Shown piece by piece: positions 19,743 through 64,000 of a DNA stretch of 64,000 nt. A model generated the notes under the pieces. It was not told the DNA's origin and did not search any database. It was given only the letters and a program-made list of their open reading frames with translations. This stretch comes from Larus michahellis. Lineage: Eukaryota; Chordata; Aves; Charadriiformes; Laridae. Within the stretch, counting starts at the first letter, position 1, and every line of letters begins with the position of its first letter. A program made the translations under genes and the position numbers. Where the stretch lies: NCBI RefSeq assembly GCF_964199755.1, contig NC_133910.1, forward strand, positions 10,176,711 through 10,240,710, given 5' to 3'.

Positions 19743-19744
19743 GA
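19593..19744 (-). CDS. RABGAP1: RABGAP1 exon with start codon (residues 1-50)
   Basis: The ATG is at 19742-19740, only two bases after a pyrimidine-rich acceptor (tttttaag), so the rest of the 5' leader lies in one or more upstream exons. It encodes the Ser/Asp-rich start of the protein, with [13 protein letters not shown], and ends in phase 0 at GLK before a gtaag donor. No folded domain is visible. Confidence 0.95.
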
Positions 19745-29311: not shown

Positions 29312-29321
29312 GTGTGCCAAA

Positions 29322-34585: not shown

Positions 34586-35239
34586 GTGTGATTACCAAAG
34601 CAGGCGGGTCGGCGGCTGTCGGCGCAGCTCCCTCCCCGCTCCGGGGCCGGAGAGGAGCCGGCTGCCCGTCCCGGTGCCGGGGCATGGCGGCGCGCCTTTC
34701 CCTCGCTGAGGGCGCCCGCCCCCGCGGCGGGGCGCGGCGGAGCCCCCGGGCAGCCGTTCCTCCGAGATGCCTTACGGGGGCGGCGACCCCGGGCCGATAC
34801 GTTGCTACCTCTACCGGGCGCTTGGCGAGGCGCGGCGCGGTGTCCCCCGGCGGCAGCCGCTGTAGCAGTGCCGAGTCTTCTAATAAACGTGCTGCTAACT
34901 CTGTCTCCCGCCGCCTCTCATTTCCCGCCGCGGTAACGGCGCACGGGGGGCCGCGCCGGAGCCGCTTCCGGCGCCGCTACCGGAAGGGGCGGCCGGGCGG
35001 GGGGAAGCGCTTCCGGGGCGTTGCGGTACCGGCGGCGGAGTGCGCACCGGCTGCGGGGACCGGCCGGGCCGCGGCCGGTGAGTGGGGCCGAGGGAGGGAG
35101 GGGGGGGGGCGGCTCGGCGGGGCCCGTCAGCCGCTGGGGCGGGGAGCGAGGCCGCGGCTGGGCCCTGCCGGCGGGGGTGGCCCGGGCTCGGCGTGACTCT
35201 CCCCGGCGGTGCCGGCGCCTCCCCCGCGGGAGCGGAGCC
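34586..35239 (+). promoter_or_regulatory. ZBTB6: CpG island promoter and leader of ZBTB6
   Basis: GC/CpG-rich block directly upstream of the ZBTB6 start and extending into its coding sequence. Three ETS-type sites lie within 53 bp: GCTTCCGG at 34964-34971, ACCGGAAG at 34979-34986 and GCTTCCGG at 35009-35016. This suggests GABP/ETS control and a start site nearby. A strong donor CCG/gtgagt at 35077/35078 and a possible acceptor (cgggag) ending at 35232 would define a 155-bp leader intron. That intron is inferred only. Confidence 0.7.
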
Positions 35240-36523
35240 ATGGCGGCGGACTCGGAGGTGCTGCACTTCCAGTTCGAGCAGCAGGGTGATGCCGTCCTGC
35301 AGAAGATGAACCTCCTGCGGCAGCAGAACCTCTTCTGCGACGTCTCCATCTACATCAACGACACGGAGTTCCACGGGCACAAGGTGATCTTCGCCGCCTG
35401 CTCCACCTTCATGAGGGACCAGTTCCTGCTCAACCAGTCCCGGCAGGTGCGGATCACCATCCTGCAGAGCGCCGAGGTGGGCAGAAAGCTGCTGCTCTCC
35501 TGTTACACCGGCGCGCTGGAAGTCAAAAAGAAGGAGCTGCTGAAATACCTCACTGCCGCCAGTTACCTCCAGATGGTTCACATCGTGGAAAAGTGTACGG
35601 AGGCTTTGTCGAAATACTTGGAAATCGACGCTTCCATGGAGAACAGCGAGCAGGTGACAGAAAGATGTCATTCCTCAGATGCTGAACTGAGAAACGGGGA
35701 TGATATTTTAGATAAAGATTGTGAAATAATTGAGATTGCTGAAGACAGCCCAGTGAACGTGGAATACCCTGTGAAACAGGAGAAGGGGGACATTTCCCGG
35801 CCCGCGGTGCAGAGCTTGATCTCGGAAAGAAAGGACACAAAAACCCCAGAAATATCAACGGTTGAAATTGGATATAAGGACGATGAAATCTGTATCTTCA
35901 GAATGGATTCTATGAGCGTAGCAAACGTAGAAAATGATCATTTTCCTCAGCCTTGCACATCCTCTAAAACAAACTTGTATTTTCCGGAAACCCAGCACTC
36001 CTTGATAAATTCTACAGTTGAAAGCAGAAATACAGAAATGTCGGGAAATCACTTTCAGGCTTTTGTCAGTGACAATACAGAAGGAACTTCTAGTCTGATG
36101 AATGGGTTCCAGAGTCTGGACGATTCTGGCAATTCATGGCGGCACCAGTGTCCGAAGTGTCCGAGGGGATTTCTGCATCTTGAGAACTATCTCAGACATC
36201 TGAAAATGCACAAGCTGTTCTTGTGTTTGCAGTGTGGCAAAACATTTACGCAAAAAAAGAATCTCAACAGACATATCCGGGGGCACATGGGCATCCGCCC
36301 CTTCCAGTGCATGGTGTGCTTGAAGACCTTCACTGCCAAAAGCACGCTCCAGGATCACCTGAATATACACAGCGGCGACAGGCCCTACAAATGTCATTGT
36401 TGCGACATGGACTTTAAACACAAGTCTGCTCTTAAAAAGCACTTAACTTCTGTTCATGGAAGGAGTAGCAGCGAAAAGCCAAACCTGAACACTATTACGA
36501 AAGTTAAAATAGACTATGATTAA
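35240..36523 (+). CDS. ZBTB6: ZBTB6, BTB zinc-finger protein (427 aa, single coding exon)
   Basis: Nuclear BTB-ZF transcription factor, paralogue of ZBTB26. The start is ATG 35240 in a strong context (gagccATGGC) and gives MAADSEVLHFQFEQQGD, matching the family start. The frame stays open 73 codons upstream, but only through GC-rich leader. The BTB/POZ domain spans residues about 8-128 (FCDVSIYINDTEFHGHKVIF, SCYTGALEV, YLTAASYLQMV). The linker holds a SUMO-type VKQE motif and a QHSLINSTVE segment also found in ZBTB26. Four C2H2 fingers occupy residues about 304-406 (CPKC, CLQC, CMVC, CHCC; the last has H-X4-H). The C-terminal tail after the fingers is short and ends VKIDYD. Intact. Confidence 0.97.
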   Translation: MAADSEVLHFQFEQQGDAVLQKMNLLRQQNLFCDVSIYINDTEFHGHKVIFAACSTFMRDQFLLNQSRQVRITILQSAEVGRKLLLSCYTGALEVKKKELLKYLTAASYLQMVHIVEKCTEALSKYLEIDASMENSEQVTERCHSSDAELRNGDDILDKDCEIIEIAEDSPVNVEYPVKQEKGDISRPAVQSLISERKDTKTPEISTVEIGYKDDEICIFRMDSMSVANVENDHFPQPCTSSKTNLYFPETQHSLINSTVESRNTEMSGNHFQAFVSDNTEGTSSLMNGFQSLDDSGNSWRHQCPKCPRGFLHLENYLRHLKMHKLFLCLQCGKTFTQKKNLNRHIRGHMGIRPFQCMVCLKTFTAKSTLQDHLNIHSGDRPYKCHCCDMDFKHKSALKKHLTSVHGRSSSEKPNLNTITKVKIDYD

Positions 36524-43400: not shown

Positions 43401-46400
43401 AACAAATTACTCATCTGCATAAACGGAAGATTATAATGGAGATCACTTCAAAAAAGATCTATGTGGTCAGTATCAAGGACTCTTTAATTTAGTGATTAAA
43501 AATCAACCAAATTCTAAGATTTTGGCTTAAATCCACAGTGGGATTGTAATTGCACTAGCTTAATTTGTGAAAATGCCATATAATCCCACAAGTTTTTCAA
43601 GATTTTCCCTCATCTGTAGAGAAGACTTTCCTTTGTTCAGTACTGACAGAACTGCTCCGTGTCACATTATGAAACTCTCCTTCGTGCGTATCCTGCGAGG
43701 GAGCTGATGGAATCGGCCTGAGCAGAGCAGACCTAATGTGGAGCTGCGAGGCCGCCTCTTCTGCTCAGAAACAAGGCTGCTGGCGGTACTGCTGCTTCTC
43801 TGCTTTTTTCTAGGCATTTGCCTAGCTATGGGGGAGCTGAGTTCAAGCCTTCAACTGTTACCTTGAAAAGGGGTGAAACTCGTGTAGCTCACATTTTGGT
43901 AAATGCCCTAACTCCAAGCAATGTGTGGCCCTGAAGGGGATCACTGCCTGCCTCGTGTTCAACCTGTTTGGCTTTGAAGAGAGGAAGTTTTCTGAGGCTG
44001 AGACCCACACTCGCCATGCTATCTAGGAACTGGGGCATGTAGCTGGGGAAGAGGCACTGAATTTTTGTTCCTTGCTCAAAGAAGCATACTTAGATTTAAT
44101 CCAATGACTGATTAGTAAAAATGCACAAATGATCTCTAAAAATGAAGTAAAATCCAAGTTGTCTGCTCGGGCAGCTGAAGACTAGGCCACGGTTGTCTTT
44201 TGATGAATATTCAGTCCTTTTATGTGTGAGGAATAGCTTCAAGGGGATGGACTGAAATTGCCCCATCTCTATACGTATGTGTTTGGATGCTTCTTTGTAA
44301 AATGGAAACATGGGTTAATACTATTTAAAAGTACTTGAGTTTGTATCTCTTAGTGAAGGTGGGAAATCTGGCCAGTAAATTAAAATGAAAGGCAACTCCA
44401 GCACCACTAACTAAAGAACTCCCTTTCTCTATTTTTGTGTCAAGTTGTTGGAACTACTGAGGTCGTTAACTTCTGGTGTGAAGTCTCTAAGCCTTGGATA
44501 AAGGTAGACTTTAAGATAAAGCATTGCCATCAGAATTTCTAATTAGCTAGTCCAGGCAATGTTCAGCTCAACATGCTGGCTCAGTATCGTGTCATGGGGT
44601 TCTGAAACCTCTCCTTGCCTTGCTTAATGAGTACCGATACTGAACTCAGGAGGCCAAGCGCCAGATGTTCGACATTGCTCTTCCTAGATCAAGCCCTCTG
44701 TCTTTAAAGGTTTGTTGGAATTCCTGCAGATTTGTGTCATGTCCCTGCCTTCAAAATAGCCCTTTATTATATCTGACAAAAATGTGCTAATTTTTGACTG
44801 GGTTTTGGTTGATTGGTAGATACTGATAGAACAGAAGAGTAGGCAGAACAGACGGATAAACTGCAGAGCCTGGTGCTGTAGCCTTTCCTGAGAAATGTGT
44901 GAATTTGGAAATTTTTCCAGATAGCAATTTTCATGGAATGTATATGTATTTGAGACATGAGGCATCTCTATCAGGTTTGCTCAAAATTGGTCCAGGTGTC
45001 CTGAGGTTTATGTGGGAGAGGAATATACTAATAAAACAGCATGATCACCTAAGCTTGGTTTCTTTAGGAAATCAGGATTAAATAATAGTTACCATGTCCA
45101 AAGGTTGCAGAGTTAAGTGCAATGACTTGGATTAGTTATAGAGAGTGTCATGGGATTAGGTAGCTAAAAGTTAATGTAAAATAAGAACATGTAAATCTTA
45201 CAACTTCCATCATTTGTAGATGGTACAGCTGTTTGAGGAAGATCATGGGGCTTCACCTTTCTCCTCTTCCACCCAATCTTCCAATTTCATCAAATATCCG
45301 GGTCTAAAATTATCATGAGAAAATCAATCATTTATCGTTGTTACTCCACTCCATTGCAACCAGTACCGCAGTGGGAAAATGTTGCTGTGTTAGAAACAGC
45401 AAGTTACTCAACTGTAATAGTTTTTATTTATTATGTAATTTCTGAATTTAGGTTTATGTGTTTTTCAGTTTGTCATCTGAACTATTGCTTCTAATAGTAT
45501 TACTATAAAATTTATTGTAATGGTACTATGTAAACATTTTTTTAAGTAAGGACTACCATGTCTTTTCAAACTGTTTACCTGGTATGTTTGGCCAGTTTCT
45601 GTACCGGCCATTGCTTTGGGATTTTTTTTGCAGGGTGCTTCTACTTTGACAGGGAAGAGAAGCCGCGCGTATGTTTAGAGACAGATAACGTGTCTGCCGG
45701 AAGGAACAGAGCGAGGGTAATTGCACTAACCGAGTATACTGCCCATTAAAAACAAACCCAAGCTGACTTGTAGTTGGCCTTCTTTATTACGCTCTCCTCC
45801 TTGTGTTTGCTCGGTGTAGAGCACTGGAGCAATTTGTTCTTCAAGAGGACATCCCTGAAATACATTGTTTCTGACAAGGAGCAAGAATCTATTAAACATT
45901 TGCCTTATGCTTTTTGTAGAAGTTGACATGATAATTAGGAGATGTGAGATTGTTTTCTGAACACACTGGAGTGCAAGAATGGCAGGGTAGCTGGCATGCT
46001 TAATAGAGTATGGAGACTTCCTCTGCATGGCTGCCTGAAGTTTTAGGAGTTGAGAGCTTTCCCCAGCTCTCTGCTGATTTAATTAGATTATTTTTCCTGT
46101 CAAGAAATCTGAAGGTCAACACATGCTCAGTAGAATCTGTCATTTATGATAATTAAACACACAGAGATAGATCTTTAAAAATTGGTGATGCACGCTTTAA
46201 GAATCTGTTGTGTTTCATTTCTATGCTGGTCGGGAAAACAAACTACTGTATTTTAAAAGCTTGTAAATAGAGAGGCGGCTGATCCTTGCAAGTCTCTGAA
46301 GTATCTGTGGAAACTGAATGTGGGTGCTGTCTCAGAGCAGGTTCCTGCATTTGAGGTAATTAATGAGCAGTGTGGAAATAGAGCCTGTTTATTAGGAGAC

Positions 46401-48651
46401 TGACAGTGACCAACAGTGTTTTAGCAATTGAGCTGTGTGCGTACGAGCCTCTTAAACTTTTCCCTGTGTGAGCTATGACAGTAGCACATTCCCAGAGTCC
46501 TCTTGTTTGGGCTCTTACCTGTGTCAGGCAGTCAGACAAGTGAAAAACCACCATCAGCAGTAGTGTTGGTGTTAGTATTTTGACATTTCTTGTAATGCTG
46601 GCGAAAAGCTTTAAGGGGAGTGTTTACTGTAAGGCTTTACAATTCCGCGCTTCTCTTGTCCTGCTGTTCTGGTAGGAAAGCTGAAGTAGATGTGCTAAGG
46701 AAATGGTGGGATTCTTTATAGTGGCGTTAAAAATCTTTCTAGGCGTGTTGGCTCATTGTTTGGTTTTGCTGTTATTTGTTTTCCTTTTGAATTTCCTTGG
46801 TTAAAAGGTGTACATAGCAATAGCAGATTAGAGGACTGCAATTTTTTTCATCCCTGCAAGAGCTTTGATTGTGCTTTCCTAGAAGTTGTATGAGAATCTG
46901 TTTTGTCCAATGCATGTGAATATTCTGGCTTATGTCGAAAGTGTTACCTCAGCAGTTTGGTTTTGAAGGGACAGGTTCAGCTTTCAGTTTGTTGTGTTTT
47001 ACACTTGCTATGGGAATTCATTTGGGGGAAAAATCGCTGCATAATATTGAAAAGCTCACTGAGATAAGGACATCTTGTACAAGTATCCTGTTACTTAAAG
47101 GGCACTGAATGTTCATAGTACTAAATAGAATGTCTAAACAGATGGTCATAATTAACATAAAATACATCACCGATAGTCTGTTTGGTGTTCTAGTAATTAT
47201 TTCAATGGTCCGATACTTCAGCATTAATTAAACTGTAGCACAGCCAACAATGGAATTGCAGTAAAGAGTTACCAAATTCAAAGCGGAGGGGCGATCTCAG
47301 CTTCAGCTTCCTCAAAACAATTACCATTTATTCCCATCATTGGAGGGGAAAAAAAAAAAAGGAAAAAAGAACGTTAAACATGTAATTAAAACAGTTGTGT
47401 ATGTGCATTTCTAACAAGCTGCTAGGAGAAGCTTGTTCCTAGCCTTGAAGTGAACTAACTGGTCTCGAGGTTGCCAGAAAGTCACCACCATTGCACATTG
47501 CAAGAGGGTGGGGCTGCTCCGCGCCGAGGGGAAGCTGTGGATTTAATTCTTCATGACGAAAGCTTGAATGTAAACAGTTTTGGTGGACTTCTTAGGCCTG
47601 TTACCTTTTTCGAGAACATGCATTATATAAGACGGGATGTCTTTCACAACAATTTCTATAAACCCGTGTTTTCTTTGCAATACATTTATGTAAATGATTT
47701 GCATGGCACTACTGCACAGAGTGAGATGTTTCAAGAGAAAAGACTTAATAGCAAGCCAACTGAAGTTATTGCTTGCCTTATCGTAAGTTTTGTTGTAAAT
47801 AGGTGGGTTTTCAACTCATCAGAGAGTTTCTCACTGGGAGTTCATGGAAGTGGAGTTGCGTTGTTGTGTCAGGCAGAGGTGTGAAAAGCAAAATTCAATA
47901 TGGCGATCTCTGTCCCTGAGGGCTCCGACAGGTCCTCGGGAGAAAAGGAGGAAGTAACTTGAGAGAATCATAATACTAGAAACTAATGTCTCATTCTTTT
48001 AGTGTTTTCTTATGATTCTTAACTTTTGTTAATTGATTTGTTAATGGATTTGTCTTTCACAGAAAAAGAAAATGTGTCTGGTTGTTTGTTTTTTTTTAAA
48101 AAAAAGCAAAGCTGTGTTTAGTTCAGTGGCTGAATAAGATCTGTAGAAGGAAGGCATTGTTCTACTTCACGGCAAATGGAAATAACATTTTAACTCCCCT
48201 GGGCCAAAAATAAAAATTTCTGTGTCTTCTCCCCACCCCAGGCCCGTTCTACAACCAGGGAGCATTTTCAGGGTTTTGAAAACTTGAGGTTAGATGAGAT
48301 AGTGTGAGAGATGGTTACTGTGATTCATGCCTTTATGCTTTCTGTGCCAATAAATGTCTTCCTCTTCCTACACTAAAGGTGTATTTAATCCTGTGAGAAG
48401 AATTTTAATGGCATTTATTGTGAATAGGTTCGACTACAATTTATGATAGACTGCATTAATTCAGTTCATGAGCCTTTTTTGGTACAATTATTAAACTAAC
48501 ACAAAGTTGAGTTTTTTGAGTACTTCAACGTAAGAATTTGGTTTTGATTCTGTAAAATATTTAAATAGCGGTTTGATGTTTGTTTTTCTAATTAAAAATC
48601 ATTCTAAATTACCAGAAAACATGTTTTAAATATTCTGTTATTCACTTACAG
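40435..48651 (+). other. RC3H2: RC3H2 intron 1
   Basis: An 8.2-kb intron. Its first 0.5 kb is still CpG island, including a 15-C run at 40515-40529. The remainder is AT-rich with A/T homopolymers (42235-42247, 47350-47361) and no recognised mobile element. A 137-codon open frame at 47471-47884 resembles no known protein and is probably chance. Confidence 0.6.
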
Positions 48652-48948
48652 CTGCCAAAACATAGTACAGTGAAATAATGGTCTGCTAGCCTGCTAAACA
48701 AGTGTCCAGCTTCCACAATGCCTGTGCAGGCAGCTCAGTGGACAGAATTTCTGTCCTGCCCAATCTGCTACAACGAGTTTGATGAGAATGTGCACAAACC
48801 CATCAGCTTAGGTTGCTCTCACACTGTCTGTAAGACCTGCCTGAACAAGCTTCATCGCAAGGCATGTCCTTTCGACCAGACTGCCATCAATACAGACATC
48901 GATGTGCTTCCTGTAAACTTTGCACTCCTCCAGTTAGTTGGAGCCCAG
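48652..48948 (+). CDS. RC3H2: RC3H2 exon 2 (leader end and residues 1-77, RING)
   Basis: Acceptor acttacag. The ATG at 48718 begins [20 protein letters not shown]. It carries the whole RING finger, whose last ligand is Asp53 as usual for Roquins. Ends in phase 0 at QLVGAQ before gtatga. The 66 leader bases hold the end of one uORF and a 3-codon uORF at 48678-48689. Confidence 0.96.
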
Positions 48949-51900
48949 GTATGATTTAAGCAGCTTTTTGTTTTGCCACTTCATGTTATTACCATTTACA
49001 TGCCAGTTGCAATATGCGTGCTGATCTTTTTCCCCTTGTTTTAGTCCAAAAAAAAAAAATGGTAAGACTTTAACTTTGTAATATTTAGAAGTCCATATAT
49101 ACTCTAAAAGCAACCACACCATTTTCAGGACCAACCTCTTCTCATAAAACAAAAGCATTCTAATTGAAAGCTGAATTCTGGTTTAAAAAGGCTCTTGAAC
49201 TGTGACTGGAGAAAAAAATATTAATTAGGAAACAGACAATTATCTGTCACAATTGTCATTAGAAAAGTGAACCTGCAGATTGCACTCATTTGTCTTATTC
49301 TCACAAGGAATCTCATTTCTACATGTCACATGTTCGAAAGTAGCTAGCTGTTTAACCAAGTTTCAGAAGTGTGTGTGTATAATTTTTTTTTTTTTTAAAT
49401 ATGCATGATGATGGCTTTTCAGTTGCGTTTTCAGACACTGGCTAATCAGGCCAGGAATGTTCCCGGTGCTGTCTCGTAGCAGTGGCAAAACAGCGATTAT
49501 ATAATCAGTACCGCACTTTATGGAGACTAAATAAGTCTGTTCACCTTCTGCTGATTCATATGCTTTTTCATGTTACTCGCTGTAACACCTGGGTGATGCA
49601 GTAAGAAGATGCTTTTTCCTTTGCTTTTTAATGTCTTATCACATGCCTTGATACAGCTATTGGCAATAACGCTATCAATGTCAAAGTGGTTTTGTTTCTC
49701 AAGTTCATATGTTCCTTTCATTTTTTGTTATTTCTAAGTTTGTGTCAGATCACTACCTTGATCTTGCAACATTCATTTTCCTGGTCTCCTGACTTGCAAT
49801 GTCTTTCAAACAATTTAATGTATTTTGGCTAACACTCCCTCTATTTTCATTGTCTGACCTTGTTACTCTACTTTGAGTTTTTTTTCCACCAAGTTAAGTT
49901 TGCTAGTTCTTCTCTTTGAAGATTTCAGCATGCCCAAATTATGCTTAAATTTTTTTTAACTTTGCTTTTGATTTTTTCCTATTATTTTCTTGCCAGTTAA
50001 TTTTGTCTTATAACTTCCATTGTCTCTCTGTAGTAAATCATGCTGATTTTGTACACTGATCATCCCCTCAAATCGTGTGTTCTTCATTCATCTTTTAAGT
50101 ACCTTCTCATTAGACCTTGGCTGTTGTTTTCAATGCTACTTTTGTTCTTAATGTGTTGAGTGCTAACAAAAATAACCTTTCATCACCCTGACCTCATCTT
50201 GAGTCCTTTTTGTATTGCTTATTACATTTTACTTACCTTGGGTGTGTGCTGTCTTTCACTTCTCTAAAAAGCAGTGTACATCTGCAACGTTATGTCCTTA
50301 ATGGTAGCGGTGTTGGTACCGTCATAGGCATATCAGATAGGTCAGCTGGGCATATGTAATTCTTTCCCCCCCCTCCTCCCCCTTGCATTTTCTTAGGTAC
50401 CTGATCATCAGACAGTGAAGTTGAGTAATGTAGGAGAGAACAAACATTATGAAGTAGCAAAGAAATGTGTTGAGGATTTGGCACTCTACTTAAAGCCATT
50501 AAGTGGAGGAAAAGGTAAGTCTCTACTGAACAATGGAATTTTGATATCGCTTACTTTTAACAGCATTGTGTTTTCAGCACTGATTTTAGATGTCAATGGG
50601 ATAATCCTCTCATTTTTGTAAGAAATTCTCTCTTATGTCTTTAAAAGCTTATTCACACCTGTGACACTTAATATCTTTTTATTTTAGGTTTACTTTTTTT
50701 TTTTATTTAAGGGGCTAGGCTAACTTTGTACTAAAGCTGAACTTTCCTCAAAGGATGGGCTTGATGTCAACTTAAGACTTTAATTAAAATTCTTTTTGAT
50801 AATGAATTACACAGAATTGCCTAAGAGAAGGGAAGATACCCGTGACTAGCATCCAAGTCCTGGAGAAAGACACATACTAGTAAACATTTTGTTTGTCTTA
50901 TTCAGAAAAATTTGCCTGATTAGAAGCAATTAGTTTGCCTTTTCTCCCTTTCTTTGAAGGTGTTGCAAGCTTGAATCAGAGTGCACTGAGCCGTCCAATG
51001 CAAAGGAAACTTGTGACACTGGTGAATTGTCAGCTGGTAGAGGAAGAGGGTCGGGTTAGAGCTATGAGGGCAGCTCGATCACTGGGAGAGAGAACCGTTA
51101 CAGAACTGATCTTGCAGCACCAGAATCCTCAGCAGCTTTCTGCCAATCTTTGGGCTGCTGTCAGGGCACGAGGATGCCAGTTTCTAGGACCAGGTAAGGT
51201 ACCTGTAGAATCTGCAACAGCTGTACCTTTATGTAGCTGTACCATTCCTTAACAGAAAATTATTTGGAAGTTTCTTCTGTTCAGTTGAAGATGTAATTAC
51301 TTCTGTTTTTCAACTTTTTGCCACAAAGAAAGGAGATGGGGAAAAAAAATAGACAAGTTAGTAAAATCTGCTGTTTTAAAGTTTTGAGGGTTCCCCCCCA
51401 CCTTATTAACTGTTCTTCAAAATTGTGAGAAGTATTTAAAAAATCCTGTCAAAGTAGAGTAAATAAGCATGCTTTCTGCACAGTTTGTAATGCAGTGTAA
51501 CTGTAACACAGGCTGAATGTACTGCTGCCTGTGATTAGAATTGGATAGGAAACGGCAAATGCTCTCTTGCTTACACTTTAGCTGTAAATACAGTGAGCCT
51601 AACTTTAGTTGCAGCATACTTTAATTTTAAAATTTATAATGAGCATGTTTATATCTTTGATAGAAACAGCAAATTCTTAGTTAAGAATGCTGCTGAAGCA
51701 AGCATAGAAATGAGAAGGAAACTCTTTTTAAACTGCAAGTAGTCCTCTTTTGATTCCAATAACTGATGATAGCATTCCTGTAGTGTTCCCATATCTATTT
51801 TATGCAGTTTCATATAATCATAGAATGGTTTGGGTTGGAAGGGACCTTTAAAGGTCATCTAGTCCAACCCCCCTGCAGTAAGCAGGGACATCTTCAACTA

Positions 51901-54900
51901 GATCAGGTTCCTTAGAGCCCCATCCAGCCTGGTCTTGAATGTTTCCAGGGATGGGGCATCTACCACCTCTCTGGGCAGCCTGTGCTAGGGTTTCACCACC
52001 CTCATCTTGAAGAATTTCTTCTGTATGTCCAATCTAAATCTACCCTCTTTTAGTTTAAAACCATTATCCCTTGTCCTATTACAACAGGCTCTGATAAAAA
52101 GTTTGTCCCTGTCTTTCTTATAAGCCCCCTTTAAGTACTGAAAGGCCACAGTAAGTTCTCCCTGGAGCCTTCTCTTCTCCAGGCTGAACCCTCTCTCAGA
52201 CTGTCCTCACAGCAGAGGGGCTCCAGCCCTTGGAGCACCTCTGTGGCCTCCTCTGGCCCCGCTCCAACAGGTCCATGTCTCTCCTGTGCTGAGGCCACAG
52301 AGCTGGAGGCAGCACTGCAGGGGGTCTCCCCAGAGTAGAGCGGAAGGTCAGAATCCCCCTCGAGTCCTGCTGGCCACACTGCTGGGGATGCAGCCCAGGT
52401 TGCAGGGGGCTTTCTGGCCTGCGTGAGCGCACATTGCTGGCTCATGCCCAGCTTTTCACCACCAGTAGTCATAGCTCTTTAAGTTTTCTGTGCTTAGAGC
52501 GCTTCTAAATACTTCGAAACTAGCAAATTTCTTAAAATGTTTAAAAAGCTTTTTTTTTTTTTTCTTATGATTAGTCAAATAAAAAGTAATAAGAATTTAC
52601 ATTCAAGGTGATTCAGATGCTCCTACTTACGGCGTTAATATATGATAGCCTGGCTGTTTCCTGGCAGAATATTTCACTTCCTATCTTTTATTTTTGTGCG
52701 TTAAAGCTATGCAAGAGGAGGCACTGAAACTTGTATTACTGGCACTGGAAGATGGCTCTGCACTCTCAAGAAAAGTTCTGGTACTTTTTGTTGTGCAAAG
52801 GCTAGAACCAAGATTTCCTCAGGCCTCTAAAACAAGCATTGGTCATGTTGTGCAGCTACTGTATAGAGCATCATGCTTTAAGGTAAAATACCAATGTTTG
52901 AAGTTTGTTCCTGTAAACTAGTGCAGCTCCAGAGAACCTGACCTAGAATTAGTATCTTTCACCTGTGAGATGTTATATAAATTCAGTTTCTACACATTTA
53001 AGTAATGTAGACTATAAGATTTTATCTAGAACTGTCATGAAGTATTTGTTGCATATTTAAAATTCCCTGCAAAAGGAACCAAGTGGTCACATGTGGAATT
53101 AGCCATTATAGATTCTGAAATTACTGCCCTCGTTATTAACTACTGCCCATCGTCTGGAAATTACCTGCCCTGAAAGAGGCGTGAAACCTGACTGTAGGCA
53201 CTCCTAGCCTGCTTCAGGAAGTAGTGAAGTGTTTTAATATAATCACTTTTGACTTGATTTAGATTCATAAGAGCTGGCCATAGCTAGACATGCCAGACTG
53301 GCCTGTGTGCCCTCAAAGCTTGGAATCCAATCCTAGCATTCTAAAGAAAACATTTGGAACACTGTGGTCCTGGGAGCTTCCCCAGCCCCAACAGCAGGTG
53401 TGAGAGAGGGACACCATACACAGAATGCTCTCAGCCTCAGCTCCAACGTTGTGTTCCCACACGTTTGTCATTCTCTCTCCTTTTTCTTTTGTCTGTATCT
53501 AGCCTCCTTGCACTCAAGAGGTGCTTTATTTTTGATATATAGGGGTAGGTTGTTTAAAATGAACAGTCCCAACTCTTTATATCTGGAGAAGAATGAAAAG
53601 TTAATTCAATGGGTCTTTTTTTTCTTTTGAATCACAGTTTAAAAACATGATTATCACATCACATCACTAAACATTAAAATAATGAGACCTGTTGCATTGC
53701 TCTCCTTTATGACAAATGTGTTCTGTAACCTAAGAATTATACTTAATATTTATAGTGGGCTCTCAGTTAAATATTCTGTTCTTTAAATGTCAATATCTTA
53801 AAATTTTTCTACCTTCTTATTATTTAAGTAACTTCTAGAGACTTTCCTTTTTCTTTAAGTCATCCTTTAGTAGCAAAAACTACTGGTAGAACTACTAAAT
53901 ATCTAACTGTATCTCCTGTGACTTAAGCAAATCTGATTACTTTCCTAGTTGGAAGTAGTGAGTTGGTATGGTTTTGCAGCTGTGATCCTGTAGAAGCTGG
54001 TGTTTCTGCCTGTGCACTGCTAGCTAAGTGGATGAATACATGGAAGAAAATGAAGTATATGCTAAATATACAAAAGCAATAATTTTGTAATTTGTGTTGT
54101 GTAACTGTCTTACGGACTTTGAGTTTTTTTGTTAAAGGAGGAGTATTTAGCTATTACTATTTATTAGGTCACTAAAAGGGATGAAGATTCTTCTCTGATG
54201 CAACTTAAAGAAGAGTTTCGGAGTTATGAGGCTTTGCGGAGAGAACATGATGCCCAAATTGTTCACATTGCCATGGAAGCAGGACTTCGAATATCACCAG
54301 AACAATGGTCTTCCCTTCTTTATGGTGACTTGGCACATAAATCCCACATGCAATCCATTATTGACAAGGTTCGTCAAAGGGATGATTTTAATATCTTTGT
54401 AGGGTTAGATTTCACTGTTAAATGTTATAATAAAAATCCAAGAACTGCTTGAGTTGACTTTTTGTCTTTAGTCATATTAATTAAAACTAGAATGAAGGTT
54501 TTTTTCACCATGGTAGTGTATTCTTCATATGAAGACATTTTGGTTTTCAGTAGCTTAAGATTAATTCTGGTTTTTGTGTCTTATGATGAAGCTTCATAGG
54601 GCAGATTCTGAGCTGAGAAATAAAATTTCTCTCCACTGATACTCTCTATATGCCATCTGAAGACACGCAATTGTGTAGGAACCACTGTAATGAAAATCTC
54701 TTTAAGATTAGTAGTTCACAGTTGTAAGATGCAGCACACTAATGCTCACTTTGTTTCCAGCTCCAATCTCCAGAATCTTTTGCAAAGAGTGTACAAGAAT
54801 TGACAATTGTCTTGCAGCGCACGGGGGATCCTGCAAACTTAAACAGGCTGAGGCCTCATTTAGAGCTCCTGGCAAATATAGATCCAAATCCAGGTATGCA

Positions 54901-57900
54901 AAGGAAGCTTTTTAAGCATTTCTTGATATTTTTCGTATCTAGCAAAGTAAATTATTAAGATGATAACCTCCATTCCTGGTCTCAAAATTCCCATTAATTA
55001 ACATAGTATATCATAAACTCTTCTTCAGGGCCCTCTGAGTTCTGTCCTAGTACTTGGCATTTTGAAGTACTACAAGAGTTACCTCTTATTTATGATACTA
55101 CTGGAGTTATTGACAGAAGCCTGCTTTTAATAATTTTAGATGCAGCGTCTCCAACATGGGAGCAGCTGGAAAATGCAATGGTCGCTGTAAAGACTGTGGT
55201 ACATGGGCTGGTGGATTTCATTCAGAATTACAGTAGAAAAGGCCATGAAACTCCACAGGTAACTATATTCGATGGTTGCATTATATGTCTAAATATATAT
55301 TTACTGAAAGATGTGACTGAAATATTTACAGCCTTTTCTGTGGAATAATTGATGACGCTGTTTTTTACTGTGTTCAAGTTTTGACAACTTAACATTTCTG
55401 AGTATGGAATGCAGCAGAGCTTGATGTAGTGAGATCCATACAATGGCATAGTACTTAGCCCATCAACGAGAAGTTTTCTTAGCTTTCTGATTAAAGGTGC
55501 AAAATATAAAAACATATCATGAATGTGTTTTGTGTGTTTCAAGCCTGTTTTTATGTAAATGTTTGTTAGATTGTAAGAGGAATGTCCTGTGCTTGTTTTT
55601 TTTTTTTTTCCTAAAGCCACAACCAAATAGCAAATACAAAACAAGTATGTGCCGAGACCTTCGACAGCAAGGGGGATGTCCAAGAGGAACAAACTGTACA
55701 TTTGCTCATTCTCAGGAAGAGCTTGAAAAGTGAGTGTGCAAGATTGCCTTTTTTTTTTACCTCTTTAATTTAAATCCGAGAAATCTCCATAGAATTTTGA
55801 AAACAATTTCTTCTGTACGTTTATTCATTTGGAAGGATTTGTGAATCTCTTGAAGTGACAACTCTTTACATGAAATTGAAAGTACAGTAAAGCAATGTCT
55901 GCAAACTAATTCAAGTTCTATTTTTCATTTTATGCCATATGAAGTAAAATTTCCTTTCCTGAAACTGAGTCTAGGCTCAGTGTCTGTCAGGGATTGGTTA
56001 TATCACCTACAAGAGAGAAAATGTAATTAAATTTTAATTGATTAAGGAATAAAGTGAGTTATTTGAAGAGTATGTAATGTCTGCATTCTTGAAGCTGTTT
56101 TCACCCAAATCCGTTTTCAAAGAACTGCAGAAGTGGATCTTCTAAGAGGGGAGGTGATCTTTGGTTACGAGGAAGACATTTGTGTTCTATTTGCAGATTG
56201 TTGAAAATAAGCACGAGTTCTTGAAGTCTTGTAGTTTTTGGATATCATGTTCTTCTCAATCCCTTCTTTTTGCTAATTTTGCAAATACATTAAACTTAAT
56301 AATAAGCACTTGTTAAATCATCTGTCTTTTGTGTGTGTTTGTATGTGTTTGTTTTTAGATATCGTTTGAGGAACAAAAAAATCAGTGCAACAGTGAGAAC
56401 ATTCCCCCTTCTAAATAAAGTTGGCGTAAATAGCACCGTCTCAACCACAACAGGAAACGTCATTTCTGTCATAGGAAGCCCTGAAGCAACAGGGAAGATG
56501 GTGCCAAGTACTAACGGAATAGCTACTCTAGAAAGTGGTGTTCCCCAGTTGATCCCTCGCTGTGCAGACACCTCCTTGAGAGCTTTGGAGAACACCAAGA
56601 AGGGAGGGAAGACTGGAGCCAATGGTCAGAATGTTTCTGGATCCCCTACAGAATCACTACCTGAAAAGTAGGTAACTTTTTTCATAAAGATAACTAAGCA
56701 CAAGATTTTGCTTTTAGACCATCATGGAGTTTGTAGATGGCAAACGAGATGCTGAATTCTGGTCCTGGCTTGCAGTTGTTGCTGGTCCTCACTGGCTGCA
56801 GAGTAGTGCAAGATCTCGTACTGCAGTACAGATATCGTTTTACAAAGTCAGTGGATTCAAGTTGTCAGAGCCAGCATCGGTTGTTTTAGCTATTGAATGC
56901 TCCCATGCAGTATAGATAAAATGGTAAAACTCTCTTTTTATCTTTTATTCTGTTGTTCTCGGCCTGGTATCTTGCTTACTGTTGGGTTATTACATAAAAA
57001 TAAAACAAAAATCTTGCACTCAAAATTTGACACTTCCTGAAACCGAGAAGGGTGCATGTAGTGCACAGTCCCTTAATAATCCTGGAAACCTCCTAGTTTT
57101 GGGGTTTTCCCTTAAAAAATTTCAGATGCTTCTGCAGAAAGCGCTGAGCCTCTACATAACTTTTCAAAGCCTTTGTCTTTACCAGAATACACTTTAAAAT
57201 GGTATGTAAGCTTCTGAGTACATACCAAAACATTTATATCCACTTTTGAGTTCTCTTAGGAGAAAGTCTGAGATGTAATAATACTGTCAGTTTCGGGTAC
57301 AAAAAATGAAATTCCAGAGGAAGTGACATGGCCCAAACTTTTACATTACATGGGAGTGTACAGAAAGAGATGACCAACTGAAATAAGTAAAGATCTGCTT
57401 AATGATTTCTTGGTAATCCTTTTCAGTAAAATTGGTTCTCCACCCAAGACTCCTGTAAGCCAGGCAGCAGCTACCTCAGCTGGTCCTCCTAATATTGGAA
57501 CAGAAGTTAATTCTGTGCCTCCAAAATCCAGCCCATTTGTTCCCAGAGTACCCGTCTACCCTCCACATTCTGATAATGTTCAATATTTCCAAGATCCCAG
57601 GACTCAGCTGTCATACGAAGTTCCACAGTACCCTCAGACAGGTGAGTGAGATAAGCAGTGTGCATGTTTATATTCAAGCAAAAATTAGGTGTTACAGCAT
57701 CAGGTCATTCACAAGCTCTCAAAAGAAAAGATAGAGGTGTTCAAACAATCCTCTCCGAAGAAAAAAGAGTAAGCCAAGTGTGAAATGGTTATTTATGGAC
57801 CTTTGGAAGTACTTTTTTTAGCAATATAGCTTTTTATTTTAGAGACAACTGTTACTATATAAAGAAGTGCTGAAGATGCTGTATTTTCAGTTACATAGTT

Positions 57901-60900
57901 ATACCATAGGATCAATGGCAGAGAAACTCCATTTTCCGAATTGGGTCAAGGTGGTAAAGGGTCAGCACTACGTCTGCAAAAATGGTTGTCATACATGAAA
58001 TTATATTCCACAGAAATACGATAGGGTCAGTAACAGGTTTGTAAAGTGTGACTCTTCGTTCTCTAAAGGTACTTATCAACACTATTTACAGTTTTAGAAC
58101 GTGTAAAATTCTGGGTCATTTGTGGTTACATTAAATATACCTTTTTCCAATTTTCAAGGATATTATCCACCACCTCCAACAGTACCAGCTGGTGTGGCTC
58201 CCTGTGTTCCTCGCTTTGTGAGGTCCAATAACGTTCCAGAATCCTCCCTCCCACCTGCTTCCGTGCCATATGCCGATCATTACAGTACATTTCCCCCTCG
58301 AGATCGACTGAATTCTCCTTACCAACCTCCTCCTCCGCAGCCGTATGGACCAGTTCCTCCTGTCCCTTCTGGAATGTATGCTCCAGTTTATGACAGCAGG
58401 CGCATCTGGCGCCCACAGATGTACCCACGAGATGATATTATTAGGAGCAATTCTTTACCTCCCATGGATGTGATGCACTCATCTGTCTATCAGACATCAT
58501 TACGTGAGAGATACAACTCTTTGGATGGCTATTACTCTGTGGCTTGTCAACCTCCAAACGAACAGAGGACTGTGCCTTTACCGAGGGTAAGTGAGAGCCA
58601 GAAAGGGAAGGATGTAGTCTTGGTTCTGAAGGTCATTACTGAGAAGTTGGTAAATAATTAGCATAGACCTCATCTGTTTATTTGGGGTTAGAGTGATCAA
58701 GACATGTGACCTGGACAAAGTTCTTGTTTTGTTTTTGAACTTAATAAAATGGGCTTGTAAAATAGACCGCTCAAATCTGCCTTAGTACCAGAGCCCCTCT
58801 GCCTCTTTAATTCCCATGCATGTTGCTTGAATTAGTTACATATTTAAGATTTGCTATACATAGGCCAGCTTCTCCTCCAAATCCTTGTGGAATTCTTCTA
58901 GTGATAGCAATGGAAGGTTACACACCCAAGGGAATTTGGGGGTCAAGTGTGTCCCCTGCAAGTATTTGCCTTCTGATTAGAGTACGATAGGATATACAGT
59001 CCTATATTTATTATTGCTAGGAGCCTTGTGGTCATTTGAAGACTGGTTATGATGAGCAATTAAGACGGAAGCCGGAGCAATGGGCACAGTACCACACACA
59101 GAAAACTCCTCTGGTATCGTCAACCCTTCCTATGGCAACACCATCTCCAACACCACCTTCTCCTCTCTTCAGTGTAGATTTCAGCACAGAGGTGGGAAGC
59201 CAGAGAACTTCTTTATTTTCCCTTCCTGTTTCTGTAAGATGCCATTTAATATTTCTAATAGAGAGTTACTACCTGCCATCTATTGTTCGTAAAATTAATT
59301 TAATCTTCTAGCAAAAGGAAAGTAGTATCTAGTAGTGAATGCATTCAATTTGGTGATCCTAAACACGATTGCTGAAAAAAGGTCAAGAAGTGAAGGGATT
59401 CAATTTAACCTTACTAAAGAAAATATAATTTTATTGAACCAGCTTTGTGAACCTCCACGTTTTTGTGTAGGGAACAACAGTTGTTTTCCATTAAGAAGGA
59501 CTTTCCCTTTTATACTCCAAATGGTATTAGGACATGATGAGTAGACTGAAACAAGCTGCAAATGCTTGTCAAGTCCCAGGGAGTACATATCCCTTAAAAG
59601 TGGCAAAAGGCATTGGTAGAACATTGTGTACGTGTGTGATAAGTTCTGTAAACAAGAATGGAATAGAAAAAAAATATCTTGTGACTTTTATTTTCTGTAT
59701 GTGTAAATTAAATGCATCCAAGAAACTAGTTTGAGACCCATGGTGCCAAGCACTCTTTGCTGTGATTTGACAGGTCCCTTGGTCATATTTGAGGTGTTTG
59801 AAAGTATTCAGAAAAGGTCCTGTAAGGTACTTGAAGTCCCTTATGGGTACATTCAGGGTAGATCAGGATTTAGTCCTTTTCATCCAGATTGGAGGGTTCC
59901 AAGTTGTACTTCTGTCTGCCACTGGCTTATACATTAAAGGGAAATGCATGGCTTCCTCTCAACTTAATTACTGTAAGTATTTGCCTGAAGAAACCTGCTA
60001 CTAACGTAGTGACACTGATTTCAGTCTCTCATCTTGGCAGACCAGGTAGTTACTTGCCTGCCTTTCTTTGACAGTTGTCAGCTGCAGTGGTTTAAAATTT
60101 GACAGAATGGTTATGTTGTCCCTGAATTGAGTCTTGAATACAGCTAGAACTCCTTGAGTGACTTTTGAGATAATTCAGTGAAATAGCAATAAATGTCTTT
60201 TCTTATTTTAAGACTGAATTCCCTATTTTTATTATTCACTGCTTATTTATTCCCTTTTCCATAGTTCTCGGAGAGTGTCAGTGATTTGAGTGGAACTAAA
60301 TTTGAGGAAGACCATCTCTCTCACTATTCACCATGGTCTTGTGGCACTATTGGGTCTTGTATAAATGCTATCGACTCAGAGCCCAAGGATGTGATTGCCA
60401 ATTCAAATGCCGTGCTAATGGTAGGGGTTTTCTGCATGTTATCTCATTAGTGTAATGATACTTACATGCTGAAACGTCTTCTGTTTGGTTAACAAGCCTT
60501 TTTTTTTTTTTAAGTTGATAGTTTCTATTCTTAGTATTTTAAAGTAGTTTTGCCCATTTGAAGTTGTTTGGAATATCTTTTCCCAGTTTTGTAAATAAAC
60601 AATCTGTTTACTTCAGTGACAGAATGTAGTGCCATGAATGAAATTCTCAGATGTCTGAAACAACTATATTAATAACAGATCTCTGTAAATCAAACTTGTA
60701 ACCAAAATATTTTGAGTAGATGGTCTGTAAACTGACAAGAATTCATTAATTTTAAGTATGTTCTCTGATTATTAGAATGGATACACATTTTTGACTTCTT
60801 AATTTTGTTTGTCGCTCTTCAGAGTTCTTTATATGAATGTATATGTGTACGCACATATCCTTACAATTTCTGAGGCACCTAAAACAGTCTCAGAATACGT

Positions 60901-63900
60901 TGCAGTGGCAGTCTTGACTGGTTAATACAAGGTCATTGTGGCCACTTCAGAGCACGTGTTTCCACTGCAGGAACACGTTTTCTATTTGGCTTAAGTACGA
61001 TGGTCCATCCTGTATGAATGAATCACTGGCCTTTTCAGGATTCTATGATTCATTACGTTGCCATTATTTCAGAAAATCTTTGATTTGAAGCTAATCCCAA
61101 GAGCAATATACACTCACAGAGAAAAGCTGAAATACTGTGGACCCAGGATAATCAGCGTGAACTTAATCTTGACTGCTTTGTACCTACAGAGAATCTGTAT
61201 GAACTGTTTTCCTAGATTATACCTCGTACTTGGTTGGAAGGCACTTTCTCCTTTAATAAACAGTTTAATGCCAACAAATCTGTGAAAATAAAATGCAACT
61301 TATTTTTTGTCACCTAATTTCCATGAGAGAAAAAAAGCTAACTGAAAGACTTCAGGGGACAAAAAATATGTAGTATGAATCATGGAATACATCTTCCGTC
61401 TGGAGGGGCAAGAGCTCATGCTTTTTGGAGACCTTCTGCTATATAGGGTAGCAGGTTACCTTTATGTTCTATGAAACAAGCGTAACCAAATCTCATCCCA
61501 AGCCTTCTTTGATACTGCCTCCTTCAAGTATAGGAAACAGTACTGAAGGAAGCATACTAGAACTTTTTCTACCTGGAAGCAAAAGCTTGGAAAAGCAAAA
61601 TTATTTCGTCTAATACTGTCAATAGCTTTCTTATGGTCAGTTTGCCATTAAAGGGCAATAGTTAAACCATTGAGGGCCATCTTGGCTCTCCAGTTGGACA
61701 GATTTTCAGCATTGTATTCAGCAACAATAGTCAGAAAGTTACTGACTTATGAATCTGAATAACTTCAAATGAGTCCATGTATCTTCTGTGTCCTAAATGT
61801 GTAGGATTTGGACAGCGGGGATGTTAAAAGGAGAGTACATTTGTTTGAAACTCAGAGAAGGGCAAAGGAAGAAGATCCTATAATCCCATTTAGCGATGGA
61901 CCGATTATCTCCAAGTGGGGTGCAATCTCCAGGTCATCCCGCACGGGTTATCACACGACAGATCCTATTCAGGCCACTGCTTCCCAAGGAAGTGCTACGA
62001 AGCCCATCAGTGTATCAGGTACAAATACGCTTTGTATGACAATGTAGCACACATCATGAGTGTTTCATCCTGTTCATGCTTACTACAGCAATGAAGATGC
62101 AAAGAGATAAAACACCCGATTATCCCACTTTAAGAACAGAGAAGATAGTGAACGGTATCTTAATTTGTTACAGATTATGTCCCTTATGTCAATGCTGTTG
62201 ACTCAAGATGGAGTGCCTATGGCTCAGATTCTCCTTCATCAGCACGTTATGCGGAACGGTATGGAGTTTTTTTCTCTTAAAAGCATTTTCCACAGCTTGC
62301 TGTTCTTCAAAATCCTGCATGTGGGGGGAAAAGAATCTGTAACTATTAATAGACGGTCTTAATTTTAAAGATTTTTTTCCGATCCAGCATAAAGCCTTGG
62401 AAAAACTACATTAAAACTTGTGTAGTCTTTAATACTTAATGCAGCTAGTAATACCCAATTACAAGCAACATATTCCTTGAGAGAACTAATCAAAGAATTG
62501 GAGTCAGTACTCCCAAGCTGTCATGTTAGAATCTGCGATCTTGAGTAGTTTCCCTGAAGTTTTCTTGCCACATCTTACCCATATATAAAATAAAGATGTT
62601 TGCTTCATGTAATGTCTTGGGGTATTGTGAGCCCCAGTGAAGATGAAGAGTGCTTTATCTTAGTCACACGGTTTCTGTCCAGAAGTCTATAACATCAACA
62701 GACTAATGAAGTTTATGGGGCCTTTGATGTAGAGAACTTGTTTTTAATTCCTATTTTTGCCTTCTTTCTCTTAAAGGGACAGGTTCATAGTTACAGATTT
62801 GTCTGGTCACAGAAAGCATTCCAGCACTGGAGATCTACTGAGTATTGAGTTACAGCAGGTAAGACCAGATATTATACCATGTGAGTTTTTTTTAATTTAA
62901 AAAAAAAAAATTAGTAAAATGAACAGAAAACTGTACAATTGTCAAAATGATCAATAAGGGTTAACTAGATGCTAGTACTGCAGCACTTAGTATGATACAT
63001 AAAGACTGCTAATATGAGCTGTTCCATTGACATCAGTGAGGCCATTTTTGGGAGAAAGTGGTGGGCCTGATAAATGTCAGCAAATGCAGAACAAAATAAA
63101 TGCGGTGCATGAAAGGAATACATAGTTATCCATCTAGCAAAAGAACTGTTCTTTTTGTAAGCTGGTTTATTTTGCCATTTGACAACACGTGGTTTAAGTG
63201 TAGTTGTTGGTAATGGATATGTTTCTTTCCATAGGCCAAAAGTAACTCGTTATTACTTCAAAGAGAGGCGAATGCACTAGCCATGCAGCAGAAGTGGAAT
63301 TCTCTAGATGAAGGCAGTCGTCTTACCTTAAATCTTTTAAGCAAGGAAATTGATTTGAGGAATGGTGAGGTAAAGAAAGGGGTAATTGGGATGAAACAAA
63401 TCTTTGTGGTTTTTTGTATATGCATAAGTGCATGCATTTTAACTAAGAGTTAAAATTCTTAGTCCTAACATTCCCAAATATTTATAACACGTTTTGTGCA
63501 AGTTAAGTCACAGTTGTTGTTGCACCTAGTTATTTCCCTGAGATCAAGTAGGTGCACCTGCTATGCTGCTGCTCTAATCATCCATTTACAAAATTGGAAG
63601 AATGTGACAATCCATTTTCATGCAATCATTACTTTTAGTTCTATTTGTACGTGTTATAAATCTAAACATTCTTTCCATGGACTATATAGAAATTTCTACT
63701 TCAGTAGCTTTGTATCCTGTGCTGTCTATGCCCAAAGTTCTATTTATGTCTGAATAGCTCTTTTGTATTGTAGAAATATTGCGTCCTAGAAATGCATCTT
63801 CTGTCTTCACTTTAATACTTGAGTGTTGTGTCAAACAGGTGAAAAGCCAACTTGATATTTACAGAACATATGAATTCTTTTTTTAGACTGATTATACTGA

Positions 63901-63994
63901 AGATTGTGCAGACGCAAAGCCAGATCGAGACATTGAATTGGAGCTGTCAGCCCTTGATACAGATGAACCTGATGGGCAAGGTGAACAAATTGAA
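48718..63994 (+). CDS. RC3H2: RC3H2 (Roquin-2/MNAB), coding exons 2-19; continues off the right edge
   Basis: RNA-binding RING-type protein that recognises stem-loop (CDE/ADE) elements in 3'UTRs and promotes mRNA decay in cytoplasmic granules. Eighteen exons: 48718-48948 (coding part), 50397-50514, 50960-51193, 52707-52882, 54168-54368, 54761-54893, 55140-55258, 55617-55729, 56359-56667, 57427-57641, 58159-58586, 59021-59191, 60265-60420, 61805-62018, 62174-62258, 62777-62858, 63235-63369, 63887-63994. Phases join exactly to 1076 codons. RING residues 14-53 (C3HC3D ligands C14 C17 C33 H35 C38 C41 C50 D53); HEPN-ROQ about 90-400; CCCH finger C416-X8-C425-X5-C431-X3-H435; proline-rich region about 545-760. 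The residues equivalent to Roquin-1 R219, K220, K239, K259 and R260 are present at 216, 217, 236, 256 and 257. About 115 C-terminal residues lie beyond the window. Confidence 0.97.
48949..50396 (+). other. RC3H2: RC3H2 intron 2
   Basis: A 1.45-kb T-rich intron with a T-run at 49383-49396 and a C-rich pyrimidine tract (50362-50383) before exon 3. A C-box-like ATGATGA at about 49406 lacks a correctly spaced D box and stem. Confidence 0.55.
50397..50514 (+). CDS. RC3H2: RC3H2 exon 3, residues 78-116
   Basis: Encodes [20 protein letters not shown] and [11 protein letters not shown], the first HEPN helices, ending one base into Gly117 before gtaagt. The polypyrimidine tract before the acceptor is unusually C-rich. 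Confidence 0.95.
50960..51193 (+). CDS. RC3H2: RC3H2 exon 4, residues 117-194
   Basis: Encodes [20 protein letters not shown] through [13 protein letters not shown] to [13 protein letters not shown] and the start of the ROQ winged helix. Ends one base into Ala195 before gtaagg. Confidence 0.95.
51815..52475 (-). mobile_element. CR1 LINE, 5'-truncated, in RC3H2 intron 4
   Basis: The left end ATCATAGAAT (51817-51826), followed by ggtttgggttggaaggga and tcatctagtccaaccccc, is the reverse complement of the avian CR1 3' terminus with its ATTCTATGAT tail. Sequence typical of the CR1 3' region continues to about 52475, where the element is truncated. It is antisense to RC3H2. No ORF survives. Non-LTR retrotransposon copies of this type are characteristic of bird genomes. 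Confidence 0.92.
52707..52882 (+). CDS. RC3H2: RC3H2 exon 5, residues 195-253 (ROQ winged helix)
   Basis: Encodes [33 protein letters not shown] and [20 protein letters not shown], ending in phase 0. It contains the stem-loop contacts R216, K217 and K236, and M196, the residue equivalent to the Met mutated in the mouse sanroque Roquin-1 allele. Confidence 0.96.
52883..54167 (+). other. RC3H2: RC3H2 intron 5
   Basis: A 1.3-kb AT-rich intron with no recognised element. Confidence 0.5.
54168..54368 (+). CDS. RC3H2: RC3H2 exon 6, residues 254-320
   Basis: Encodes [20 protein letters not shown] through [19 protein letters not shown] to MQSIIDK, in phase 0 at both ends. It holds K256 and R257 of the RNA-binding surface. 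The donor is AAG/gttcgt, a poor match to gtragt. Read-through adds 27 codons before a stop. Confidence 0.95.
54575..54667 (+). ncRNA. SNORD90: Box C/D snoRNA SNORD90 (U90) in RC3H2 intron 6
   Basis: C box ATGATGA at 54583-54589 and D box CTGA at 54657-54660. The flanks GTGTCT (54576-54581) and AGACAC (54661-54666) pair perfectly, with an extra U-G pair outside, giving the closed terminal stem of a C/D snoRNA. D' box CTGA is at 54608-54611, with a C'-like CTGATAC at about 54636-54642. The D' guide ATAGGGCAGA (54596-54605) is complementary to UCUGCCCUAU in 18S rRNA. The fifth base upstream of D' (A54603) pairs with the second U of UCUG. Established knowledge: SNORD90 is hosted in an RC3H2 intron and is assigned to 18S Um354. 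The D box ends 100 bases before the next exon, close to the usual spacing for intronic C/D snoRNAs, which are released from the spliced intron. Confidence 0.9.
54761..54893 (+). CDS. RC3H2: RC3H2 exon 7, residues 321-364
   Basis: Encodes [20 protein letters not shown] and [17 protein letters not shown], the C-terminal HEPN part. Acceptor tttccag, donor gtatgc. It lies 94 bases downstream of the snoRNA in the preceding intron. Confidence 0.96.
55140..55258 (+). CDS. RC3H2: RC3H2 exon 8, residues 365-404
   Basis: Encodes [20 protein letters not shown] and [15 protein letters not shown], ending in phase 0 at gtaact. It completes the HEPN helices before the CCCH finger. Confidence 0.95.
55617..55729 (+). 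CDS. RC3H2: RC3H2 exon 9, residues 405-441 (CCCH zinc finger)
   Basis: Encodes [18 protein letters not shown] and [16 protein letters not shown]: the C-X8-C-X5-C-X3-H finger, C416 to H435, which contacts AU-rich RNA. The acceptor follows a run of 14 T. Ends with AA of a Lys codon before gtgagt. Confidence 0.96.
56359..56667 (+). CDS. RC3H2: RC3H2 exon 10, residues 442-544
   Basis: Opens [20 protein letters not shown], then a Ser/Thr/Gly-rich disordered stretch, ending LPE plus AA of Asn545. This is the least conserved part of the protein relative to my memory of human RC3H2. Confidence 0.93.
57427..57641 (+). CDS. RC3H2: RC3H2 exon 11, residues 545-616
   Basis: Encodes [40 protein letters not shown] and EVPQYPQT, start of the proline-rich region. 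Acceptor tttcag, donor gtgagt; ends one base into Gly617. Confidence 0.95.
58159..58586 (+). CDS. RC3H2: RC3H2 exon 12, residues 617-759
   Basis: The largest coding exon: [20 protein letters not shown], a [19 protein letters not shown] core, the RSNSLPPMD motif (a potential phospho/14-3-3 type site), and [15 protein letters not shown]. Ends in phase 0 at LPR before gtaagt. Confidence 0.95.
59021..59191 (+). CDS. RC3H2: RC3H2 exon 13, residues 760-816
   Basis: Encodes [37 protein letters not shown] and [16 protein letters not shown], in phase 0 at both ends. The donor gtggga is weaker than consensus. Confidence 0.93.
59192..61804 (+). other. RC3H2: RC3H2 introns 13 and 14 flanking exon 14
   Basis: Two introns of 1.07 kb (59192-60264) and 1.38 kb (60421-61804). 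A T-run lies at 60500-60511. A short ATTCTATGATTC at about 61039-61050 resembles the CR1 tail but has no CR1 body beside it. Nothing else seen. Confidence 0.5.
60265..60420 (+). CDS. RC3H2: RC3H2 exon 14, residues 817-868
   Basis: Encodes [39 protein letters not shown] and [12 protein letters not shown], in phase 0 at both ends. It appears to carry a few extra residues (DLS) relative to human [10 protein letters not shown] as I recall it. Confidence 0.94.
61805..62018 (+). CDS. RC3H2: RC3H2 exon 15, residues 869-939
   Basis: Encodes [40 protein letters not shown] and [14 protein letters not shown], ending one base into Asp940 before gtacaa. Highly conserved. Confidence 0.95.
62174..62258 (+). 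CDS. RC3H2: RC3H2 exon 16, residues 940-967
   Basis: An 85-nt exon encoding [18 protein letters not shown] and SPSSARYAE, ending with CG of Arg968 before gtatgg. Supported by exact phase fit and by its neighbours. Confidence 0.92.
62777..62858 (+). CDS. RC3H2: RC3H2 exon 17, residues 968-995
   Basis: Encodes [20 protein letters not shown] then LSIELQQ, ending in phase 0 at gtaaga. Acceptor cttaaag. Confidence 0.94.
63235..63369 (+). CDS. RC3H2: RC3H2 exon 18, residues 996-1040
   Basis: Encodes [39 protein letters not shown] and DLRNGE, likely helical. In phase 0 at both ends; acceptor ccatag, donor gtaaag. Confidence 0.95.
63887..63994 (+). CDS. RC3H2: RC3H2 exon 19, residues 1041-1076
   Basis: Encodes [20 protein letters not shown] and [16 protein letters not shown], an acidic segment, ending in phase 0 at gtaagt six bases from the window end. 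The remaining C-terminal exon(s) and 3'UTR are outside the window. Confidence 0.93.
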
Positions 63995-64000
63995 GTAAGT

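Follow-up and report, generated by a model that had tools for sequence, protein, structure and literature searches.

The fifth coding intron of RC3H2 in Larus michahellis raises the question of whether it carries an orthologue of SNORD90, an RNA that has been described both as a guide for methylation of 18S rRNA and as an orphan. An earlier note on this DNA had placed an intronic SNORD90 here and had credited it with C and D boxes, a perfect terminal stem, an intact 18S rRNA guide and a correct position ahead of the 3′ splice site. The same stretch of sequence also bears on which of the roles reported for SNORD90 is the older one.

Identity and parts of the intronic RNA

Rfam covariance models, whose use on this region the note had proposed, were run on both strands of the window, that is, the whole 64-kb stretch of DNA that was analysed, with 4227 families. 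The SNORD90 family (RF00579) matches positions 54563–54674 (+) with a score of 57 bits and an E value of 2.3e-7, above its gathering score of 41, and the alignment runs end to end (model positions 1–111 of 111). This full-length match bears out the proposed identity, and no other Rfam match in the window reaches its gathering threshold. The note had further remarked that protein-gene annotation would miss this gene, which is true but carries little weight because the Rfam scan finds it.

The snoRNA core measures 93 nt from stem to stem (54575–54667, +) and carries all four boxes of a box C/D RNA together with a terminal stem. The C box AUGAUGA (54583–54589, +) and the D box CUGA (54657–54660, +) lie where they had been placed, and the interval between them contains a D′ box CUGA (54608–54611, +) and a C′ box UGAUAC (54637–54642, +). 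In the terminal stem, a 5′ arm GUGUCU (54576–54581, +) pairs with a 3′ arm AGACAC (54661–54666, +). The description of this stem as perfect holds for its six Watson-Crick pairs but not for the outermost pair that flanks them, 54575–54667, which is U-G. An apical hairpin (GAGAAAU/AUUUCUC, 54615–54631, +) is predicted to form in the interval between the D′ and C′ boxes; compared with the Rfam consensus, this hairpin has a longer predicted stem, rich in A and U, and inserted letters.

Chance occurrence of such an arrangement was assessed with a plain rule that specifies a C box, a CTGA starting 50–110 nt further on and at least six Watson-Crick pairs in a terminal stem. Applied to both strands of the window, the rule returns a single candidate, which is SNORD90; 100 first-order Markov windows of equal length yield no candidate. 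The predicted fold of the 93-nt element has a z score of −3.78, and none of 200 shuffled sequences is as stable.

Host gene, neighbouring genes and the chicken homologue

Six RC3H2 coding exons, all on the plus strand, were delimited manually, with the ATG as the start of the first and AG and GT as the bounds of the rest. They span 48718–48948, which encodes a RING finger (Pfam), 50397–50514, 50960–51193, 52707–52882, 54168–54368, which encodes the Roquin II domain (PF18386, E 2.7e-34), and 54761–54893. The joined exons encode 364 residues, of which residues 86–364 match Roquin-2 chain 4z30 (E 3e-179; residues 1–85 lie outside that chain) with two differences, one at the chain's opening residue and the other a V/L substitution. 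All 364 residues also match Roquin-1 (4txa), in register from residue 1, with many more differences. The short exon 6 alone returns no Pfam family at E 0.001, and 44 of 44 of its residues are identical to Roquin-2 chain 4z31. A CCCH finger is found by Pfam in 55494–55730.

These matches to Roquin-2 place the snoRNA in the fifth coding intron of RC3H2 (54369–54760, +; GT...AG, 392 nt), flanked by coding exons 5 and 6, and so confirm the proposed host gene, which is also that of mammalian SNORD90. The acceptor lies 100 nt beyond the end of the D box, in agreement with the position claimed ahead of the 3′ splice site. The donor of this intron (54369–54374) reads GTTCGT, a weak match to the usual donor consensus GTRAGT.

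Upstream of RC3H2, Pfam identifies two long BTB/C2H2 zinc-finger frames at 29313–30635 (+) and 35237–36520 (+), which from their position we take to be ZBTB6 and ZBTB26, probably. A PDB search with both frames leaves these names unconfirmed, because the best 60 matches shown were other zinc-finger and BTB proteins. Two open stretches on the minus strand, 12099–12476 and 19473–19745, are presumably exons of RABGAP1. Pfam returned no match for three minus-strand stretches that included these two, nor did a PDB search with 12099–12476 (−), the single stretch tried. The neighbours of RC3H2 in the window fit the mammalian order; in the available part of a horse study, a table lists ZBTB26, RABGAP1, PDCL, RC3H2 and SNORD90, with SNORD90 inside the coordinates of RC3H2 (PMC8515666).

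The SNORD90 gene is already known in birds and is not new, because a chicken homologue was published in 2009 and the RNA has an entry in a chicken expression table. The name HBII-295, used for the mammalian counterpart of that homologue, we take to be an alias of SNORD90. According to the available part of the 2009 report, the chicken homologue of HBII-295, GGoCD3, resides in intron 5 of RC3H2 and gave an RT-PCR product in embryos at stage HH34, as in that study each of the 20 orphan snoRNAs, of which ten are C/D RNAs, yielded a product of the size predicted for it in chicken embryos (Shao et al. 2009, PMC2653536). The second source is the expression table in PMC7206725, likewise available in part. 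The gull RNA thus shares with GGoCD3 its mammalian homologue, its RC3H2 host and its intron number, and differs in that GGoCD3, whose letters were not aligned with it, is listed as 109 nt long and as one of ten orphan C/D snoRNAs, with no rRNA target (PMC2653536, same part). We count this orphan listing against a guide function.

The D′ guide and its 18S rRNA target

Upstream of the D′ box, the guide AUAGGGCAGA (54596–54605, +) is complementary to UCUGCCCUAU of 18S rRNA over ten Watson-Crick pairs, with a further possible G-U pair at 54606, and the duplex is predicted at −18.6 kcal/mol. The nucleotide A54603 occupies the D′+5 position and stands opposite a base that we take to be U354 in human 18S numbering. 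With D′+5 on this base, the ten-nucleotide Watson-Crick guide in the D-plus-5 register proves to be as the earlier note had described it.

Additional CTGA motifs occur at 54613 and 54636, and the 18S register is obtained only from 54608. Among the 707 CTGA sites of the window (362 on the plus strand and 345 on the minus strand), the one at 54608 is the only one with a 10-mer complementary to human 18S rRNA that ends 0–3 nt upstream, in a scan that covered the 5′ part of that rRNA. The target itself appears in published 18S primers, as given in the available parts of two articles: a primer in a HepG2 study contains TCTGCCCTAT whole (PMC10513270), and a primer that served as the general control for eukaryotes in work on meats, chicken among them, carries the target from CTGCCC on (PMC10418471).

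Methylation of U354 in human 18S rRNA has been assigned to SNORD90, with RC3H2 as its host (PMC8210301, in part). In the table of that article, the U354 row is positive for mouse and negative for zebrafish and yeast, and the D/D′ column is blank for SNORD90; because the table names neither element, the assignment to D′ is taken from the register seen here. Methylation at SSU-U354 and the level of SNORD90 fall together (PMC8210301, in part), and both rise together in SH-SY5Y cells without FUS (PMC9941101, in part). The site is variably methylated; the available parts of the same two articles tentatively call it growth-related (PMC8210301) and report Um354 as nearly absent in some cells, with a score of 0.02 in wild-type HEK293T (PMC9941101), which weighs against a guide function, as does the blank D/D′ column. 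The gull RNA and human SNORD90 therefore have the RC3H2 host and the U354 guide register in common, whereas methylation was measured in human cells and the guide alone is seen here (PMC8210301 and PMC9941101, both in part).

For birds, no rRNA methylation profile (RiboMeth-seq) was found in literature judged by titles and abstract openings. The parts of articles available likewise yielded neither methylation of the U354 site in birds nor an explicit statement of a U354 guide for a bird, and such a statement may exist in print.

Judged from its sequence, this locus is very probably an orthologue of SNORD90, that is, an RC3H2-hosted box C/D snoRNA with a D′ guide for the equivalent of 18S U354. 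As such it is real and ordinary, a case for routine snoRNA annotation. In Larus michahellis, SNORD90 would be transcribed as part of RC3H2, and once the fifth coding intron had been spliced out, trimming as far as the terminal stem would set it free. The C/D core proteins would bind it to assemble a snoRNP, as expected from the family, and the D′ guide would pair with UCUGCCCUAU of 18S rRNA. Fibrillarin would then methylate the 2′-O of the uridine that faces the D′+5 base, which would be the equivalent of human Um354.

Role and age of the guide

The gull sequence was compared with the printed Rfam consensus, leaving out gapped columns and unprinted loop positions, and is identical to it at 80 of the 106 columns compared. 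Identity is complete in the D′ guide segment CAUAGGGCAGAUU (13/13), the C box (7/7), the D′ box (4/4), the C′ segment CUGAUAC (7/7) and the D box with the next two letters (6/6). It is lower in the letters flanking the apical loop (8/12 and 5/7) and in the segment upstream of the D box (54643–54656, +), where 7 of 14 letters agree. The RNA therefore resembles RF00579 in its end-to-end match above the curated cut-off, and differs from it in a diverged D-side segment and apical loop. Retention of the D′ guide amid such drift is the pattern that would be expected from selection on the guide. Bird sequences may have contributed to the Rfam consensus, so birds and mammals are not cleanly separated in this comparison. 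The same point qualifies the earlier claim that host linkage and guide have been kept since these lineages split, a claim that the consensus and the published hosts support but that a consensus including non-mammals would weaken.

Also set against a guide function are a 2011 paper in which the target of SNORD90 is listed as unknown (PMC3349704) and a 2023 paper, available in part, that calls human SNORD90 an orphan (PMC10335830). The latter forms the basis of a different reading, in which the gull RNA is a SNORD90 orthologue with a mainly mRNA-directed role, for instance bringing the m6A writer to NRG3, a role suggested for human neural cells. In the part of that study available, human SNORD90 shows more association with RBM15B than with fibrillarin, lowers NRG3 while raising its m6A, and loses its effect on NRG3 when its central region is scrambled; the predicted sites in mouse are conserved, although less robust than in human (PMC10335830). 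That article locates the complementarity to NRG3 within this central region, a location compared here by region and not by letters. In the gull RNA, the D′ guide in its 18S register is kept letter for letter, whereas the apical-loop flanks and the D-side segment are the parts that have drifted. Moreover, U354 methylation parallels the level of SNORD90 in human samples (PMC8210301 and PMC9941101, both in part). We consider it improbable, on this evidence, that the mRNA-directed role is the main one here. Retention of the guide speaks for the rRNA role as the older of the two, and an m6A role may exist beside it.

It is less probable still, and by our estimate very much so, that this copy of SNORD90 is decayed or silent, with its processing lost: boxes, terminal stem and guide are all intact at 54575–54667, and the host gene and intron number are common to the expressed chicken homologue (PMC2653536, in part). 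Membership of a different box C/D family, such as snoZ118, is scarcely credible and is rejected on score, since RF00142 matches the same place at 21.7 bits (E 0.2), far under its cut-off of 48, whereas SNORD90 reaches 57.

Other Rfam matches were taken as chance. With E allowed up to 1 across the window, the one additional match is SNORA25 at 43440–43519, whose score of 28.4 bits compares with a cut-off of 85. Matches to SNORD111, FTX_2 and HOTTIP_2, obtained in 48000–64000 at E up to 5, each fall far under their own cut-offs.

What a SNORD90 orthologue with a U354 guide adds in a gull is modest, namely an intact guide for a site that is unmethylated in zebrafish according to the published table (PMC8210301, in part). 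SNORD90 has at times been called an orphan; the intact guide supports a role on rRNA, and its presence outside mammals argues against regarding SNORD90 as an orphan. Taken with the unmethylated zebrafish site, it suggests, at the level of sequence, that the U354 guide is older than the split between birds and mammals. A fuller history, which we hold tentatively and rate at slightly less than an even chance, is that the guide arose before this split, after the zebrafish line diverged or independently of it, and was held by selection as the remainder of the RNA diverged. Finding the U354 guide intact in a non-mammal bears on when the site came under guidance. If this history is true, methylation of 18S rRNA would be the conserved job of SNORD90, and the reported m6A role at NRG3 would be a later, mammalian addition.
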